55,523 nucleotides of DNA from Thermoplasmata archaeon (GTDB lineage: Archaea > Thermoplasmatota > Thermoplasmata > Lutacidiplasmatales > UBA184), in the NCBI GenBank assembly GCA_021817605.1, contig JAKAUN010000010.1, forward strand, positions 1 through 55,523. Reading direction: 5' to 3'. Made by a program: the position numbers and the translations under genes. Of this stretch, positions 2,030-54,384 are shown piece by piece (within the stretch, counting starts at the first letter, position 1; each line of letters starts with the position of its first letter). The notes under the pieces are model-generated. The model saw nothing but the letters and a program-made list of their open reading frames with translations. It was not told the DNA's origin and searched no databases.

Positions 2030-2901
2030 GACGGGATCTCGGGCACCGGCGTGCAGCACGGCGGAACCGTGGCAGCGGAACGCTTCGGCCCTGCGTCCGC
2101 GGGGTAGCCCGTGCCCACGAGGCTCTGTCGCGCCGGGACCGAGGAGGGAGCGGTGTCGCGATGCTCCGGACAGAGGAAGTCCACGTCGATCCGCACGACC
2201 CCCCCGTCGTACCGGGGCCTGTGGGAGACCGCCTGCCAGCCGTCGGGCGGCCGGAGGCCGAGAAAGCCGTTCTCGGACGGGAATGTCGTCGCCTGGGCGA
2301 CGGCCCGGCAGCCGGTGGCGTGGCACTGGACCAGGACCGGACGGCCGGCCTCCCCGGGTGCCCGGGAGAGGTAACCGGCCACGTGGCGGTCGAGATCGCT
2401 CAGGTCCGAGGCGCTGCTTTCGAACGCCTTGAGGACGGACGTGGCATCCTCGTCCGGGAGGGCGGCACGCAGGCAGGAGAGCGGATAGTCGCCCTCGTAG
2501 CGGAGCGCGACGTGCTCGGCCTCGGCGAGCTCGTCCAGGAGGTCGGCGAGGCGGCGCGAGCTCTCCGTATCGCCGGGGACGTGCCCCTCGAGCGCCCGCT
2601 CGGCCTGGGCGATCCGCCCGGGGTACTCGTCGTGGTCGACCTCGATGGCATGGAGATGCTCCTCGCAGTTCGGCATCGCGTAGCGGCGGGCGACCGGACC
2701 GAGGTCGTGGTCGACCCGACGGGCATGCACCGCCCGATACTGCCCAAGAAGCCGCAGGCCCTCGGCGATCTCTCCGTCGGGCACCCTGGTGCCCCCGCGG
2801 AGCGCCGTCGCGAGCTCGCTTAGGCGCTCGAGCAGCCTCTGCAATGTCTCGTTCTCACGGTCCAACTCGTCCAACGGGTCTCTCTGTTCGATTGCGATCA
2901 T
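2026..2901 (-). CDS. Hemerythrin-like (HHE domain) protein
   Basis: The first 170 or so residues are mainly helical and contain His/Asp/Glu clusters in hemerythrin-like spacing: HARRVDHD, EEHLHAIEVDHDEY and AEAEHVALRYEGDY. These would hold a di-iron site that binds oxygen or senses redox or NO. A C-terminal part with several Cys and His residues (VQCHATGC, FLCPEH) could bind another metal. I chose the ATG at 2901 because a GGGGAG lies upstream of it; an in-frame ATG at 2964 would add 21 residues. The gene overlaps the next gene by 4 bases. Confidence 0.65.
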   Translation of the reverse strand: MIAIEQRDPLDELDRENETLQRLLERLSELATALRGGTRVPDGEIAEGLRLLGQYRAVHARRVDHDLGPVARRYAMPNCEEHLHAIEVDHDEYPGRIAQAERALEGHVPGDTESSRRLADLLDELAEAEHVALRYEGDYPLSCLRAALPDEDATSVLKAFESSASDLSDLDRHVAGYLSRAPGEAGRPVLVQCHATGCRAVAQATTFPSENGFLGLRPPDGWQAVSHRPRYDGGVVRIDVDFLCPEHRDTAPSSVPARQSLVGTGYPADAGPKRSAATVPPCCTPVPEIPS

Positions 2902-3709
2902 AGTCTGTTGACTCCCCTGCAGCTCGTGACTGAGGAATGCCCTCCCGGCGCGTAAGATGGACATCGAACCCTTTCGATGCGCGGAGCCTCGTGCGTCGCC
3001 TCGTTCGGCAGCGGGCGAATCCGGCGCCGACCACGAAGACCGAAGCGCTGGGGAGAAGGGCGACGGCGAACCGGCTGGCACGAGCGGCCCGTGCCCGGAG
3101 CCGAGGGAACTCGGCGGAACGCGCCCGGCTCGGAAGAGAACGCGGCGCGGACTCCCCGGGAGAGCCGAGACCTGAGCGGGACGGCCACCGCCTCGGACCC
3201 GACTATCGCCGTTAGGGCGAAGGCGGTTCCGACCACGAGGTTCCGCCCGTTGGCCTTCTAGGGGCGGCGCACTTCCGGACCTCGGAGCTAGTAGAGCAGG
3301 AGAAGGCCGAACAACGGGGGAGCCGCGCAACCACTTGGAGAGACGGGCGACTTTGGGAGGGGAGCGGATGACTTTCTCTGCCGTCCCCCCATAGAGCTCC
3401 CGCAGCTCGGGGACGAGCACGAGGACCACAATGACCCCGCCGCCCGGCCGCCAGATTGCCGACACGACATGGGGACGGGCGAGCTCTCGGGTGAAAAACG
3501 CCACGGCCAATCTCCGCCGGACCGGGGCCGCTCGGGGTCACGGGTCCCGGGCCCGCGAGCCCCTCGTTTAGGTAAGGGTCCTCCCGGGCGAGGCCCGGGT
3601 CCGCCGACGCTGGGCCGCCGCGGACGCCCAGGAGCCGAGGAAGAGGACGACGCCGAGGACTATAGGGGGGCGGGGAGGCGTCCACCTTCGCGGCCCGGCG
3701 CACGCGCCC
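2902..3709. other. Poorly coding 0.8 kb stretch
   Basis: Between the hemerythrin-like gene and threonine synthase no intact gene can be supported. Overlapping frames on both strands give Arg/Pro/Gly-rich translations. The one protein-like island is the frameshifted small ORF at 3288-3510, listed separately. The region could be decayed genes or a long intergenic spacer. Confidence 0.4.
3288..3510 (-). pseudogene. Small membrane-protein ORF with an apparent frameshift
   Basis: Reading from an ATG at 3510, one frame gives a hydrophobic stretch (GGGVIVVLVLVPELRELYGG) and a basic helix. A neighbouring frame then gives PLFGLLLLY and a stop at 3288. Removing one base from the run of five G at 3316-3320 (plus strand) joins the two into a 73-residue protein with a hydrophobic C-terminus. 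I do not recognise the family. It could be a real small protein with a sequencing indel, or a decayed gene. Confidence 0.35.
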
Positions 3710-4882
3710 CTAGCGCAGGAACGGGAGGCCGCTGCCCGTGTTGTAGAGAAGGACACGTTCCCCCGAACGGACGACTCCCTCCCTCAGGAGACGCGGCAGC
3801 ACCGCCCAGGTCGCCGCCCCCTCGGGGGAGGCCGAGATGCCGAACCGCGCGGCGAGGGAGAGCACTCCTTCCAAGATCTCGGCGTCCGTCACCGTCCTCG
3901 CGTCCCCCCCGGAGCCGCGGATCGCTTCGAGGACCCGCTCGGACCCGAACGGCGACGGGACCAGGAGCCCCGGAGCGACCGTGGACGGAGCCTCCCAGGC
4001 TTCGGCGCGCGGGCTCCCGCGCTCGATCGCCCGGACGATCGGGGCGCAGCCCGCGGCCTGGACGGCTACCAGGCGGGGTTCGTGCTCGATGAGCCCGAGC
4101 TCGCGGAGCTCGGTGAATCCCTTGTGCATGCCGACCAGGCCGGTGCCTCCGCCCGTCGGATAGACGACCACCTCGGGGAGGCCCGCCTCGCCGGCCTGCT
4201 CGGCGATCTCGAGCGCCATCGTCTTCTTGCCCTCGACCCGGTAGGGCTCGCGCAGCGTCGACATCTCGAACGAGCCACGCTCTTTCTCCGCCGTACGGGC
4301 CGCCTCGCCGGCATCGCGGATCGTCTCGCCCGCTCGGACGACCTCGGCGCCGTAGAGCCGTGCGCCGGCCTCGCTGGTGACGGCAGCCCGACGGGGAAGG
4401 TAGACGGTCGCATGGAGGCCCGCTCGAGCGGCGTACGCCGCGAGGGCGACGCCCGCGTTGCCGGCGCTCGGAACGAAGAGACGGGAGAGCCCGAGGTCCC
4501 GTGCCCGGGAAACGGCGACCGCCATGCCTCGTGCCTTGAACGAGCCGGTCGGCAGGCCGCCGTCGTCCTTCACGAGGACTTCGACCCCGGGCGCCTCGGG
4601 GACCGGGCCGAGCGCGAGCACCGGCGAGAGCCCCTCGCCGAGGGAGGCGATCGAGGAGACACGACGGACCGGGAGAAGCTCGCGGTACCTCCAGAGCGAC
4701 CGCTCGCGTCCTGCCACCTTCCTCCACCAGCTCTTTCCGTCCAGCCGGGAGAGCTCGTAGGTCGCGAGGAGCGGCCCGCCGCATGTCGAGCAGGTCCCCT
4801 GGACCGTATCGGGGTCCGTGTCGGCAGAGCAGGCCGGGCAGACCAGGCGGCCCAGGATCGAGCCGGTGTCCGGGGAGGTCAT
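3710..4882 (-). CDS. thrC: Threonine synthase (PLP-dependent, zinc-ribbon N-terminus)
   Basis: The enzyme converts O-phosphohomoserine to threonine. Its 390 residues begin with a zinc ribbon, CPAC at 15-18 and CSTC at 31-34. A fold-type II PLP domain follows. The PLP lysine is K116 in PTGSFKARGM, the Asn loop is PSAGNAGVALA and the phosphate-binding glycines are PTGGGTGLVG. The motif has KARG rather than the more common KDRG. This occurs in some threonine-synthase-like enzymes, so a related beta-eliminating activity is not excluded. The ATG at 4882 shares a short promoter region with the divergent pirin gene. Confidence 0.85.
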   Translation of the reverse strand: MTSPDTGSILGRLVCPACSADTDPDTVQGTCSTCGGPLLATYELSRLDGKSWWRKVAGRERSLWRYRELLPVRRVSSIASLGEGLSPVLALGPVPEAPGVEVLVKDDGGLPTGSFKARGMAVAVSRARDLGLSRLFVPSAGNAGVALAAYAARAGLHATVYLPRRAAVTSEAGARLYGAEVVRAGETIRDAGEAARTAEKERGSFEMSTLREPYRVEGKKTMALEIAEQAGEAGLPEVVVYPTGGGTGLVGMHKGFTELRELGLIEHEPRLVAVQAAGCAPIVRAIERGSPRAEAWEAPSTVAPGLLVPSPFGSERVLEAIRGSGGDARTVTDAEILEGVLSLAARFGISASPEGAATWAVLPRLLREGVVRSGERVLLYNTGSGLPFLR

Positions 4883-4907
4883 CCGCGCCGCTCTCAGCCC
4901 CCGGGGA

Positions 4908-4916
4908 GGGATAAGG
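4908..4916. promoter_or_regulatory. A/T-rich TATA-like element between thrC and pirin
   Basis: GGGATAAGG is the only A/T-rich patch in the 63-base gap between the divergent thrC and pirin starts. It lies about 30 bases from each start codon and may serve either direction. No Shine-Dalgarno at normal spacing is seen for either gene. Confidence 0.4.
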
Positions 4917-4945
4917 CGGCGCGTGCTCTACGTGCCGGGAGGTCC

Positions 4946-5821
4946 ATGGGCGAGGCCGTCCGAGCGGCGGCGCGTCGTTTTCCAGGGGTGCCGACCTTGG
5001 AGGGCGCCGGGGTGCGGCTCCAGCGATCGTTCTCCAATCCGGAGGTCCCGCTCTTCGACCCGTTCCTGTTGCTCGACCGGTTCGGCTCCACGAACCCCGA
5101 GGACTACCTCGCGGGGTTCCCCTGGCACCCCCACCGCGGGATCGAGACGGTCACCTACGTCCTTCACGGCCGGGTCGAGCACGGCGACACGCTCGGCAAC
5201 CGGGGGACGATCGGCGACGGCGACATCCAGTGGATGAACTCGGGGAGCGGGATCGTCCACCAGGAGATGCCGAAGCGGGCCGAGGGTCTCTTCTCCGGCT
5301 TTCAGCTCTGGGTGAATCTCCCCGCCCGCGAGAAGATGTCCCCACCCGCCTATCGCGGGCTCACGGCACGGGAGGTCCCCGCCACCCCCACCGACGAGGG
5401 AGGGGAGGTCCGCGTGGTCGCCGGGAGCTACCGGACGATCGAGGGGCCCGTGCGGGGGATCTCGGTCGACCCGACCTACCTGGACGTGCGGCTCCGGCCG
5501 GGAGAGACCTTCGAGACCCCGACCCCCCTCGGGCACACGGTCTTTGCCCACGTCGTCGAGGGAGGGTTCACCTTCGGGAACCTCGCCGAGCCCCCCGCCG
5601 TGACGGGCGAAACCGTGCTGTTCGGCGACGGGAGTCTCTTCCGGGCGAAGGCGGGCGCCGGCGGGACGCGATTTCTCCTGGTCTTCGGCCGCCCGCTCCA
5701 CGAACCGGTCGCATGGTACGGACCGATCGTGATGAACCAGAAGGACGAGATCGCCACGGCTCTCAGGGAGCTGCGCACCGGCCAGTTCATCAAGGAAAAG
5801 CGGCCCCTCGTGGAGGGCTAG
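4946..5821 (+). CDS. Pirin-family bicupin protein
   Basis: This 291-residue protein matches the pirin family. The N-terminal cupin carries the metal ligands HPHRGIETVTYVLHGRVEH and the later HQE, which bind an iron or similar ion. The C-terminal cupin follows from about residue 175. Pirins act as quercetinases or redox-dependent cofactors; which applies here is unknown. The ATG at 4946 lies only two bases after GGAGGT, so initiation is more likely leaderless from the A/T-rich patch upstream. The stop overlaps the convergent lysK stop in a CTAG. Confidence 0.85.
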   Translation: MGEAVRAAARRFPGVPTLEGAGVRLQRSFSNPEVPLFDPFLLLDRFGSTNPEDYLAGFPWHPHRGIETVTYVLHGRVEHGDTLGNRGTIGDGDIQWMNSGSGIVHQEMPKRAEGLFSGFQLWVNLPAREKMSPPAYRGLTAREVPATPTDEGGEVRVVAGSYRTIEGPVRGISVDPTYLDVRLRPGETFETPTPLGHTVFAHVVEGGFTFGNLAEPPAVTGETVLFGDGSLFRAKAGAGGTRFLLVFGRPLHEPVAWYGPIVMNQKDEIATALRELRTGQFIKEKRPLVEG

Positions 5822-46553: not shown

Positions 46554-46739
46554 TCCGTCCCTTCCCTGATCCGAAGGCTGCGAAACGGTGCGGAACATCG
46601 GCACACCACGCCGCGAAAGCGGCGGAGGGGCGGAGGTAGGGGACATGCGCCCGCCGACGGGGCGAGGCTTACGTGCCCCGTGCGGGCGGCGCGAGGCCGC
46701 TACGCGGGCTTTTTGGGCTAGCACCCCATCCGAGCAGTG

Positions 46740-47612
46740 ATGGGGCTACCTCGTCGGGTGCGCGTCCCGGGCGGCCGAACGTTCGAGTACGTGGCGCAGG
46801 GCCGTGGCCCCGCCACCCTCCTTGTCCACCCCGGGGGCCCCGGACTTACCTACCACTACCTTCGCGGCCTCCTCAAGCTTGCCAACTCCAATCTCAAGGT
46901 CGTCCTGTTCAACCCGAGGGGCGTGGGCCACAGCTGGGTCCCCCGCCGGAGCTCCGACTACACCATCGCCAACCAGGCCCAGGACATCGAGGCGATCCGC
47001 AAGGCGCTGCACATTCGGGAGCTTCACCTCCTCGGCTACTCCGCCGGGGGCTTCGCGGCGCTCGAGTACGCCCATCGCCACGAGAACCATCTCACCTCGC
47101 TCCTTCTCTGCTCCACGGCCGGCAGCGCCGAGGAGGTGCGCGCCGCGGACCGGCTCGTTCTTGGCGCCGCCTCGCCGCGGCAGCGCGCGCGCGTCAAGGA
47201 GCTCACCAAGAAGAGGGCGTTCGCCGACCCGGAGTACGCCGCGCTCTGCGAGACGATCGGTCGGCCGTTCCAGACACGGTTCCTCAAGGGGATCCCGCAG
47301 GACTGGAAGGCGACCAAGGTGAGCCCCGCGGTCTACCGATCGATGATGACTCGCTCGGGAGACGAGTTCGTGGTCGACGGGACGATCGCCCGATGGGACG
47401 GGCGCAAGTATTACTCGAAGATCGAGGTCCCCACGCTCGTCGTGGTCGGCCGCTACGACATGTTCTTCGAGGCGGCGGTCGAGGCGAACGAGCGGATCGA
47501 GCCCGCCCACCTCCGCGTGCTGCCGCGGTCGAGCCACATGCCGGTACTCGAGCAGCCCACGGAATTCTTGGGCACCATCCGCGAGTTCCTGACCGACGTG
47601 ACGGGAGGCTGA
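46740..47612 (+). CDS. Alpha/beta hydrolase (proline iminopeptidase-like)
   Basis: This 290-residue hydrolase has the oxyanion-loop segment LLVHPGGPGLTYHYLRG, the nucleophile elbow LLGYSAGGFAALEYA (Ser as nucleophile), an Asp near VVGRYDMFFEA and the catalytic His in LPRSSHMPVLEQP. A small cap domain covers the site. The HPGGPG block resembles prolyl iminopeptidases, but the substrate is open. It is preceded by a short T-run (CTTTTTGG) about 30 bases from the ATG at 46740; a GTG at 46737 is adjacent. Confidence 0.85.
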   Translation: MGLPRRVRVPGGRTFEYVAQGRGPATLLVHPGGPGLTYHYLRGLLKLANSNLKVVLFNPRGVGHSWVPRRSSDYTIANQAQDIEAIRKALHIRELHLLGYSAGGFAALEYAHRHENHLTSLLLCSTAGSAEEVRAADRLVLGAASPRQRARVKELTKKRAFADPEYAALCETIGRPFQTRFLKGIPQDWKATKVSPAVYRSMMTRSGDEFVVDGTIARWDGRKYYSKIEVPTLVVVGRYDMFFEAAVEANERIEPAHLRVLPRSSHMPVLEQPTEFLGTIREFLTDVTGG

Positions 47613-47676: not shown

Positions 47677-48387
47677 ATGGGGGCTTCGGGTTCCGAGGAC
47701 GCGGCCTCCGCCGGTGGCGCCGAGTCGATCCGGCTACGCCTCACGCCGGAGGCACGCGACGAGCTGCGTCGCGCGCTCGCCGGCCGGCCCGAGGGCACCG
47801 GCGTGCGCCTCTGGGTCGAGCGCGGGGTCCATCCCCACCCGCAGATGATGGTCGACCGGCCGTCGGTCCGGGACCTCCCCGTCGACTCCGACGGGGTCCT
47901 TCTCCTGGTCGACGAGGCCTCCGTCCGCTTCCTGCGCGACGCCGAGATCCGCTACCGTACGGACGCGACCCCGCCGGGGTTCGAGATCGTGGGCCCGTTC
48001 CTTCCCACGCGCGCCCCCGCCGCCCCGCCCCCCTCGGCGGCACCGGCCGCCGCCGCCGCTCCCTCCGGCGGGAGCGGACCTCACGCCGAGTCGGAAGAAC
48101 GGGTACGCCAGGCGCTCCGCAACATCTACGACCCCGAGATCCCGATGAACATCATCGACCTCGGCCTCATCTACGGCATGGACTGGGACGCCGAGGGGGA
48201 CCTCACCATCCGCATGACGATGACGAGCCCTGGGTGCCCGGCCGTCGAGGAGCTCGTGCGCGAGGTCGAGACGAGCGCCCGGACCGCCTCGGGGGTGCCG
48301 AAGGTCCGTGTCGAGGTCGTCTGGGAGCCGCCGTGGGGACCCGAGCGGATGACCGACTTCGCTCGCCGGCAGTTCGGCTACGCCTAA
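47677..48387 (+). CDS. HesB-like domain fused to a DUF59 (MIP18/PaaD) domain
   Basis: This 236-residue protein has two domains. Residues 18-110 resemble an A-type HesB/IscA scaffold (IRLRLTPEARDELRRAL, VLLLVDEASVRFLRDAEIRY) but lack its usual three cysteines. After a Pro/Ala-rich linker, residues 140-236 are a DUF59 domain with LRNIYDPEIPMNIIDLGLIY and MTMTSPGCPAVEEL, which works in iron-sulfur assembly. A cysteine-free partner domain suggests a structural role. The start is ATG 47677. Confidence 0.8.
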   Translation: MGASGSEDAASAGGAESIRLRLTPEARDELRRALAGRPEGTGVRLWVERGVHPHPQMMVDRPSVRDLPVDSDGVLLLVDEASVRFLRDAEIRYRTDATPPGFEIVGPFLPTRAPAAPPPSAAPAAAAAPSGGSGPHAESEERVRQALRNIYDPEIPMNIIDLGLIYGMDWDAEGDLTIRMTMTSPGCPAVEELVREVETSARTASGVPKVRVEVVWEPPWGPERMTDFARRQFGYA

Positions 48388-51840: not shown

Positions 51841-52488
51841 TCAGGCCTTCGGGACCTTCTCCCAGTCCTTGAGGAACCGCTCCAGGCCGAGGGTCGTGAG
51901 CGGATGCTGGACGAGCTTCTCCATCACCGCGTAGGGCATCGTCGCGATGTCGGCCCCGGCCTTGGCCGCCTCGAGGACGTGCACCGGGTGCCGCACGCTC
52001 GCCACGAGGACCTTGGTGGGGAAGCGGTAGTTGCGATAGATTCCGAGGATGTCACGGACGAGGTCCATCCCGTCCTGGCCCTGGTCGTCCAGACGCCCGA
52101 TGAACGGGCTCACGTAGGCCGCCCCTACCTTGGCGGCGAGGAGCGCCTGGTTCGCGCTGAAGACCAGGGTCATGTTGACGCGGGTGCCCTCCTTGGCGAG
52201 GGTCTTGGTCGCCGCGAGCCCCGCAGGGGTCATCGGGACCTTCACGTAGATCGACGGGTGGAACTCGCGAAGGTGGCGGCCCTCGCGGAGCATCCCGTCC
52301 GTGTCCGTGGCCACGACCTCGGCAGAGACCGAGGGGATGCCCAGGGCGCAGATCTCCCGGAGCACGTCCTCGAACCGTCGCCCCTCCTTCGCCACCAGCG
52401 TGGGGTTGGTCGTCACTCCGTCGAGGATGCCGGCCTCCCACATCGACCTGATCTCCTTCACGCTCGCCGTATCGAGGAACAGCTCCAT
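51841..52488 (-). CDS. tal: Transaldolase/fructose-6-phosphate aldolase-like protein
   Basis: This 215-residue enzyme belongs to the short transaldolase (TalC/MipB) family. Motifs are [26 protein letters not shown] and the Schiff-base lysine in [11 protein letters not shown]. It also has [17 protein letters not shown]. It interconverts sugar phosphates in the non-oxidative pentose phosphate pathway. The ATG at 52488 is 26 bases after the transketolase stop. Confidence 0.93.
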
Positions 52489-52514
52489 CGTCGCCCTCCC
52501 CTGACCCGTCGCCC

Positions 52515-53468
52515 CTACTGAACTTTCCCCCGCTGGCGGAGGAGCTCCCAGGCCTCCTCGAGCACCCTCTCGCGCGAGAGGCCGAAGTGGTCGAGCAGCG
52601 CCCACGGCTCCCCCGACTCCCCGAAGACGTCCGGCACGCCGACGCGGCGGACCGGTACCGGGTAGTTCTCCGCGGTGGTCGAGGCGACCAGCGCCCCGAC
52701 GCCGGTCAAGACCGTGTGCTCCTCGAGGACGAGCAGCGCCCCCGTGTCGCGGGCCGCCCGCAGGATCGCCGCCTCGTCGAACGGTTTGACCGACGCGAGG
52801 TCGAGCACACGCACGGAGACGCCGACGCGGCCGAGCTCCTCGGCGACGTCAAGCGCGCGCGCGACCATCGCGCCGAGCGCCACGATCGTGAGATCGCTGC
52901 CGGCCCTGAGCTCCTGGGCGTGCCCGACGACCAGCGTGCCGTCCGTGACGACGGGGAGGTTCTCGCGGGTGAGGCGGACGTACGCCGGCCCCTCGATCCC
53001 CGCGACGGCGAACGTGGCGGCCCGCGTGCTCGGAGCGTCGGCGGGGACGATCACCGTCATCCCGGGGAGCCCGCGCATGAGCCCGATGTCCTCGAGGATC
53101 TGGTGGGTACCTCCGTCCGGTCCGACGAGGAGGCCGCCGTGGGTGGCGACGATCTTCACGTTGGCGCGGTTGTAGCAGATCGACTGGCGCACGGCGTTGT
53201 AGGCCTGTCCTGCGGCGAAGACCGCGAAGGTGCTCGCGAAGACGGTGCGCCCGGTCAGGGAGAGACCCGCCGCGATGGACATCATCGTCGGCTCCATGAC
53301 CCCGACATTGAAGAACCGGGTCGGGAACTTCTGGCCGAAGAGCGCCGTGCGCGTCGAGCCGGAGAGGTCCGCGTCCAGGACGACCGTGTTCGCGTCCCGT
53401 TCGCCGAGCTCGACCAGCGCCTTCCCGTAGGCGTCGCGCAGGCTCTCGACCCTGGGCGGCTCCTTCAC
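52515..53468 (-). CDS. Transketolase, C-terminal subunit
   Basis: This 317-residue chain holds the pyrimidine-binding and C-terminal domains of transketolase, including [26 protein letters not shown] (with the catalytic Glu region) and [16 protein letters not shown]. It pairs with the N-terminal subunit encoded just before it, since archaeal transketolase is often split. It overlaps that gene by 4 bases. Confidence 0.93.
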
Positions 53469-54316
53469 CGGGCCGGCACCCCCAGCTCTGCTCCGAGCTC
53501 GGCGAGCGCCTTCTCGGCCTCCGCACGGTTCGGTGCCTTGCCGTGCCAGGAGGACTTGTTCTCCATGAACGAGACCCCCTTTCCCTTCACGGTCCGGGCG
53601 ACGATGGCGGTCGGGCGGTCGGTGGTCCGACGGGCCTCTTCTAGGGCGGCCAGGATCGCCGAAAAATCGTGCCCGTCGATGTCCAGCGTGTGGAAGCCGA
53701 ACGCCCGGAACTTATCGGCGATCGGCTCGATCCCCATGATCTCCTCGGTCGACCCGTCCGTCTCGTAGAAGTTGCGATCGAGGAGGACGACCAGGTTCGA
53801 AAGGCGGAAGTGCGCTCCGGCCAGGAGGGCCTCCCAGGTCGGGCCGGCCTGGCACTCCCCGTCCCCGAGAACCGCGTAGATCCTGTGGGCTCGCCCGGCG
53901 AGGCGGGCGTCCAGGGCCATCCCGACGGCCATGCCCACCCCCTGGCCGAGGCAGCCGGTCGAGGCCTCGATGCACGGGAGCTTGTTGCGGTCGACGTGTC
54001 CCTGCAGGCGGCTTCCGAGCTGGCGCAGGCTCAGCAGCTCCTCGCGGGGAAGGAAGCCGCGCTCGGCGAGCGCGGCGTAGAGCGCGGGAGCCGCGTGGCC
54101 CTTGGAGAGGACCAAGCGGTCGCGTTCCGGCCAGTCCGGACGGGTCGGATCGAGCTTCATCTCGCGGAAGAGGAGCGCCGTCAACAGGTCGGTGACCGAG
54201 AGGCTCCCGCCGGGATGGCCGCTCCCCGCCGTGTAGATCATCCGTACCGCGTCCTGCCGTACCCGACGTGCCGTCGCCTGCAGGGCAAGAAGGTCCTCGG
54301 GCGACGGCCTCGGCAT
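53465..54316 (-). CDS. Transketolase, N-terminal subunit
   Basis: This 283-residue subunit carries the thiamine diphosphate pyrophosphate site: MIYTAGSGHPGGSLSVTDLL and LGDGECQAGPTWEALLAGAHF with metal-binding LLDRN. It also has EASTGCLGQGVGMAVGMAL. The start ATG 54316 is about 30 bases after a TATA-like element; an upstream in-frame ATG at 54364 lies before that element. It heads the operon through transaldolase, DUF357, translin and MTA phosphorylase. Confidence 0.94.
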   Translation of the reverse strand: MPRPSPEDLLALQATARRVRQDAVRMIYTAGSGHPGGSLSVTDLLTALLFREMKLDPTRPDWPERDRLVLSKGHAAPALYAALAERGFLPREELLSLRQLGSRLQGHVDRNKLPCIEASTGCLGQGVGMAVGMALDARLAGRAHRIYAVLGDGECQAGPTWEALLAGAHFRLSNLVVLLDRNFYETDGSTEEIMGIEPIADKFRAFGFHTLDIDGHDFSAILAALEEARRTTDRPTAIVARTVKGKGVSFMENKSSWHGKAPNRAEAEKALAELGAELGVPAR

Positions 54317-54343
54317 GATCTGCGGCGCGGCGAGGCGGGCCTC

Positions 54344-54352
54344 TCTATTTGA
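54344..54352 (-). promoter_or_regulatory. TATA-like promoter of the transketolase operon
   Basis: On the minus strand this reads TCAAATAGA, about 30 bases before the ATG at 54316. Confidence 0.55.
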
Positions 54353-54384
54353 CCGTTCGGGCAACGAAAGAGCGGGGCGCTCCT

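Follow-up and report, generated by a model that had tools for sequence, protein, structure and literature searches.

A degenerate A-type domain fused to DUF59 in one family of Thermoplasmata: a candidate iron-sulfur maturation factor

The window, the 55,523-nucleotide stretch of a Thermoplasmata archaeon contig analysed here, encodes a 236-residue fusion protein (47677-48387, + strand, ATG start) in which a cysteine-free A-type (HesB/IscA) domain is joined by a Pro/Ala-rich linker to a DUF59 domain. This architecture, and with it the loss of the cluster ligands, is conserved within one archaeal family, where the cysteine-free domain has a single origin and is under purifying selection. By analogy with NfuA, the fusion is probably, though by no means certainly, an Fe-S maturation factor in which the A-type domain would dock and DUF59 would carry out maturation.

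Residues 140-214 (48094-48318, + strand) match DUF59 (PF01883) at 61.5 bits against a Pfam cut-off of 23.5. The nearest NCBIfam models to the C-terminal part are those of SufT, with TIGR02945, the SufT equivalog, scoring 107.9 bits, under its cut-off of 143.4. DUF59 is widespread, from SufT to the eukaryotic CIA2, and its mode of working is described as unsettled (PMC4982691, PMC8593673). In an AlphaFold2 model of the protein, built from 17 sequences and with a mean pLDDT of 77.6, the DUF59 part (residues 132-219) matches 3lno with a Z of 11.8 and an rmsd of 2.5 over 88 residues. It also matches the C-terminal domains of the cation-diffusion transporters MamM, MamB, and CzcD (Z 8.4-9.1), which we take to reflect a common arrangement of the fold. 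The SPGCP motif (residues 184-188, 48226-48240, + strand) holds C187, the sole cysteine of the protein; SufT homologues are likewise reported to have a conserved cysteine (PMC4982691). Residues from about 111 to 137 (48007-48087, + strand) are Pro/Ala-rich and predicted to be disordered, with pLDDT below 50 across residues 112-133. The sequence-only reading of this gene had described both the Pro/Ala run as a linker and the DUF59 domain with its SPGCP motif, and both hold.

The N-terminal domain (residues about 18-110, 47728-48006, + strand) contains no cysteine. Its match to PF01521 (Fe-S_biosyn, residues 20-98) scores 20.4 bits with the whole protein and 23.1 bits with the N-terminal part alone (E 9e-5), under the cut-off of 26.3, and the nearest NCBIfam models, TIGR00049, IscA, and NfuA, each score under cut-off as well. 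A profile of 13 family members compared with the PDB retrieved E. coli IscA at an E of 3.8e-11, followed by HI1723 (1.5e-8), AQ_1857 (1.6e-8), SufA (8e-4), and DsrR (1e-3); at E values up to 10, all seven matches were IscA-like proteins. The N-domain blocks of the AlphaFold2 model have a pLDDT of 85-97, and residues 18-113 match IscA (1r94) with a Z of 13.2 and an rmsd of 2.2 over 94 residues, in agreement with Foldseek. The relative arrangement of the two domains is not readable from the model (pTM 0.44). The sequence-only reading had called this part a HesB/IscA-like domain without the usual three cysteines; it aligns with the IscA fold by profile, Foldseek, and structure match alike, ruling out both another fold and a chance similarity, and residues 1-186 of the translation contain no cysteine.

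The fusion is neither a lone oddity nor an assembly artefact, as 41 distinct fused proteins were collected with the two domain profiles. Orthologues of the window protein share 61-69% identity with it within its own subfamily and 42-46% in the others; a relative from the same genus, in record DAEB01000040 (Thermoplasmata archaeon UBA184), is 62% identical over the whole alignment. The DUF59 cysteine is kept in 40 of the 41, the remaining protein (L155) being truncated by a contig end. UBA184 has been placed in the order Lutacidiplasmatales (PMC9287336). Across a phylum sample of 389 genomes, a full-length profile matched over both domains in 11 of the 23 genomes of the window's family, with one further match cut by a contig end (G075). 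Among the matches listed for the 366 other genomes, which go down to an E of about 3.5e-22, there was no fusion, only DUF59-part matches or none; the full-length matches within the family all had E values of 1e-77 or better. In a class sample, where 12 candidates per genome were scored, the matches listed included strong ones in long frames in the genera coded g1 and g24-g28. Among those same matches, no fused protein was recognised in six g29 genomes, and match strength and frame length pointed to no fusion outside the family. Coverage of bacteria comes from one wide scan by short peptide patterns, a method biased towards close relatives, in which 80 of 519 relatives were kept. An Akkermansia locus (L091) matched query residues 52-235 by tblastn; it was rejected as a fusion, its N-terminal part appearing by eye unlike an A-type domain and the protein being absent from the two-profile scan set.

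The fusion loci fall into three types of gene neighbourhood, with L154, L155, L168, and L169 placed in none. Domain names of neighbours were checked on one representative each and carried over by tblastn or blastp. The window belongs to type I, in which a proline-iminopeptidase-like alpha/beta hydrolase (46737-47612, + strand, in the window) is the immediate upstream neighbour, in the same orientation, at 20 of 21 further loci examined, re-fetched duplicates being counted once; it is missing in L185. Further along the window, on the reverse strand (51841-54364), two ORFs (52515-53468 and 53465-54364) resemble by eye a transketolase split into its C- and N-terminal halves, respectively, beside a transaldolase-like ORF (51841-52605), also recognised by eye.

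All ten type II loci have a DUF2249 gene and a membrane-like protein downstream of the fusion gene, tail to tail. A weakly hemerythrin-like gene (below the Pfam cut-off) lies upstream on the same strand in seven of the ten, and a short gene without an assigned family lies between in six. A clear hemerythrin gene is found nearby in six loci and an HTH_10 regulator in eight. In Haloferax mediterranei under denitrification, DUF2249 proteins are reported to rise and bacterioopsin-like regulators to change (PMC11218638), which by analogy would suggest for type II a setting of nitrosative stress or low oxygen. In L177, two genes beside the fusion (2119-3288, +, and 4901-5416, -) encode membrane-like proteins that match no Pfam or NCBIfam family; both are conserved at type II loci, where they occur along with DUF2249 and hemerythrin genes, and have relatives in L157 and L170-L176. 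Genome G232 carries two fusion paralogues in different neighbourhoods, one of type I (L178) and one of type II (L177).

Type III comprises five genomes, two re-fetched copies each being counted once. In all five, a Ni-superoxide dismutase gene (sodN) follows the fusion gene in the same orientation at a distance of 0.5-1.7 kb. A gene for a SodX-like maturation protease lies between the two (same strand in four of the five); a thioredoxin gene stands alongside in three of the four loci compared. Ni-superoxide dismutase, together with aerobic and facultatively anaerobic lifestyles, has been reported for Lutacidiplasmatales (PMC9287336). Types II and III thus hint at stress roles for these sister subfamilies, as judged from gene adjacency; some of the stress-gene neighbours converge with the fusion gene or lie over 1 kb from it, and these are not proven operons.

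The window's own subfamily adjoins the peptidase-like hydrolase and no stress or Fe-S gene, which counts against a role in maturation or stress. Conservation of this one neighbour would suit a different function, in which the A-type domain regulates a single metabolic enzyme and DUF59 serves redox or Fe-S sensing, not maturation. Precedents exist in YneR/PdhI, an IscA-fold inhibitor of pyruvate dehydrogenase E1 (PMC10090944), and in DsrR, described as an IscA-like regulatory protein of sulfur oxidation without Fe-S binding, and the fold search with the model pairs the N-domain with chains of both (Z 9.2 for YneR, 12.5 for DsrR). Unlike the window protein, the matched chains are short and single-domain (125 residues for DsrR, 95 for YneR) and lack DUF59. 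Regulation of one enzyme nevertheless seems unlikely: DUF59 is described as a maturation domain where it has been studied (PMC4982691, PMC8593673), its cysteine is kept in every fused protein in which the domain is complete, and the differing neighbours of the subfamilies point to no one enzyme as target.

All three cluster-binding cysteines of A-type carriers are missing in the window protein and in its 41 fused relatives, none of which has a canonical A-type cysteine. In the window protein, the loop that would carry the first of them is replaced by G50-V-H-P53-H-P-Q-M57 (47824-47847, + strand), of which G50, P53, and M57 are invariant in an 18-row alignment of relatives. With the genome's own canonical A-type protein as reference, the first-cysteine column is occupied among the 41 by H (18), R (15), Y (3), Q (2), F, A, and P (one each); the HMMER alignment places the loop one residue off, which makes the exact column uncertain, though no cysteine is near in either case. 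The linker occupies the site of the CxC tail of A-type carriers, and there too neither a cysteine nor a CxC tail is present in any of the 41. Six of the fused proteins have a single cysteine elsewhere in the A-type domain.

The genome also encodes other Fe-S proteins. On contig C10, the gene for a canonical A-type protein adjoins that of an A-type paralogue rich in Gly and Cys. The latter (HesB; L144, about 3508-3918, + strand) has a glycine-cysteine-rich insert in place of the GGCSG loop and a tail that is also Gly/Cys-rich; its relatives occur in many genomes of the genus and of other genera in the family (L146-L152, L179-L181, L195). Contig C2 carries a solo DUF59 gene and the genes of two SUFBD-core proteins, while the fusion gene lies on C13 and hence not beside the latter. 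One ParA/Mrp-type ATPase scores over cut-off, on C8. No Nfu match was found in this genome (given completeness 100%), an absence that means little by itself, since the same search found Nfu in 5 of 14 well-known control genomes and missed it in the other nine.

Given these two cysteine-bearing paralogues, the A-type domain of the fusion might still contribute to binding a cluster. It could pair with one of them, which would supply the ligands, much as ErpA and NfuA form a complex (PMC8593673), or it could offer a ligand other than cysteine, for instance the histidine of the loop. We think this quite unlikely. Histidine, the commonest residue at the first-cysteine column, gives way there to arginine or to one of five other residues in the remaining proteins, so a ligand role is not conserved and histidine is an unlikely substitute ligand; nor does any member retain the CxC tail.

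When 78 rows of A-type domains were thinned to 50, the resulting tree placed all 30 cysteine-free domains on one side of a branch with support 97/95, apart from the 20 cysteine-bearing ones; the cysteine-free A-type domains have a single origin. For the fused DUF59 domains the best tree requires two changes, but the data, with few columns and long branches, do not reject a single clade (p-AU 0.31); the solo DUF59 proteins from these archaea group together (97/92). In the larger DUF59 tree, the sequence labelled SOLO in L022 belongs in fact to a gene of G007 that a contig end interrupts: L022 carries its DUF59 half and L155 its other end. As the A-type domains have one origin and the DUF59 domains may form one clade, a single fusion event is the simplest reading, though not a proven one. 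Grouping inside the fused domains are two A-type proteins that lack the canonical cysteines and stand alone (L182, 2625-3035, - strand, and L200, from 2001), perhaps products of later loss or duplication.

Among 13 selected pairs of relatives, one of them too close, 12 give a dN/dS of about 0.1-0.3 for the N-domain, in most pairs similar to or slightly above the DUF59 value. Such purifying selection indicates that the cysteine-free A-type domain is maintained. That the domain is a passive relic lengthening a SufT protein, as its lost ligands and the solo DUF59 paralogue might suggest, is thus highly improbable, the more so as it is retained in 41 distinct proteins from several genera and also exists in the two stand-alone proteins.

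The closest known parallel is NfuA. Its A-type domain is described as 'degenerated' by loss of a ligand cysteine; it binds no cluster, is required in vivo, and directs NfuA to apo-proteins, while the C-terminal domain carries the cluster (PMC8593673). In both proteins a degenerate A-type N-terminal domain precedes a second Fe-S domain, which is Nfu in NfuA and DUF59 in the window protein. Against the NfuA model, with its cut-off of 269.35 bits, the window protein reaches 23.8 bits, and its Pfam matches at E values up to 10 include no Nfu domain. With SufT and other DUF59 proteins, CIA2 among them, the fusion shares DUF59 and its conserved cysteine. It differs from a typical SufT, which is described as DUF59 alone (PMC4982691), in having an A-type domain ahead, and in its location away from the SUFBD genes, whereas sufT is often, though not always, near sufBC. 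Oligotropha carboxidovorans OCA5_c02770 likewise has an accessory Fe-S-related N-terminal part fused to DUF59, but that part is described as the N-terminus of Nfu, not an A-type domain (PMC4982691), a distinction drawn here from the description only.

A pairing of A-type and DUF59 domains does not figure among the DUF59 module types given for 761 SufT homologues in section 6 of PMC4982691, and a literature search by listings found no published report of an A-type/HesB-DUF59 fusion. The pairing therefore appears to be new, while the degenerate-A-type principle, from NfuA, and the DUF59 family are known. The sequence-only reading had called the protein an unusual assembly factor and suggested looking for the same fusion in other Thermoplasmatota. 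It is found there, and 'unusual' applies to the pairing but not to the layout, which is common to much of one archaeal family, or to the principle. The further suggestion that the N-terminal domain may only bind partners fits the precedents of NfuA, DsrR, and YneR/PdhI together with purifying selection.

SufT/DUF59 is reported to overlap with Nfu in S. aureus (PMC4982691, PMC8593673). Based on this overlap and on the shared plan of NfuA, we propose that the A-type domain, its cluster ligands lost, would have been retained for docking, either to apo-targets or to another carrier. Thanks to the flexible linker, this module could then present DUF59, which, with its conserved Cys187 and MIP18-like fold, would perform or assist the maturation step. 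The IscA fold, the DUF59 cysteine, the complete loss of canonical A-type cysteines, the single origin, and purifying selection all point towards such a maturation factor, as do a genome with SUFBD-core proteins, A-type carriers, a ParA/Mrp-type ATPase, and no Nfu match, and sister subfamilies adjoining sodN or DUF2249. The solo DUF59 protein of the same genome could do the maturation work instead. Docking and cluster transfer would be the activities of the fusion, with a putative link to oxidative or nitrosative stress in at least the sister subfamilies. A bolder and less likely possibility is that an archaeal family apparently lacking Nfu evolved its own counterpart of NfuA by fusing a degenerate A-type domain once to DUF59, with paralogues for superoxide (Ni-SOD) and for nitrosative or low-oxygen conditions (hemerythrin/DUF2249/HTH_10).

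The fusion offers a compact single-cysteine construct for testing the role of DUF59. If it is indeed a counterpart of NfuA, DUF59 would be an Fe-S delivery or repair domain able to replace Nfu. Since a cluster-free docking domain would here be joined to DUF59, and in NfuA to Nfu, the two may be interchangeable end-stations. If docking holds, this would be a second setting in which a dead A-type carrier has come to serve for targeting.
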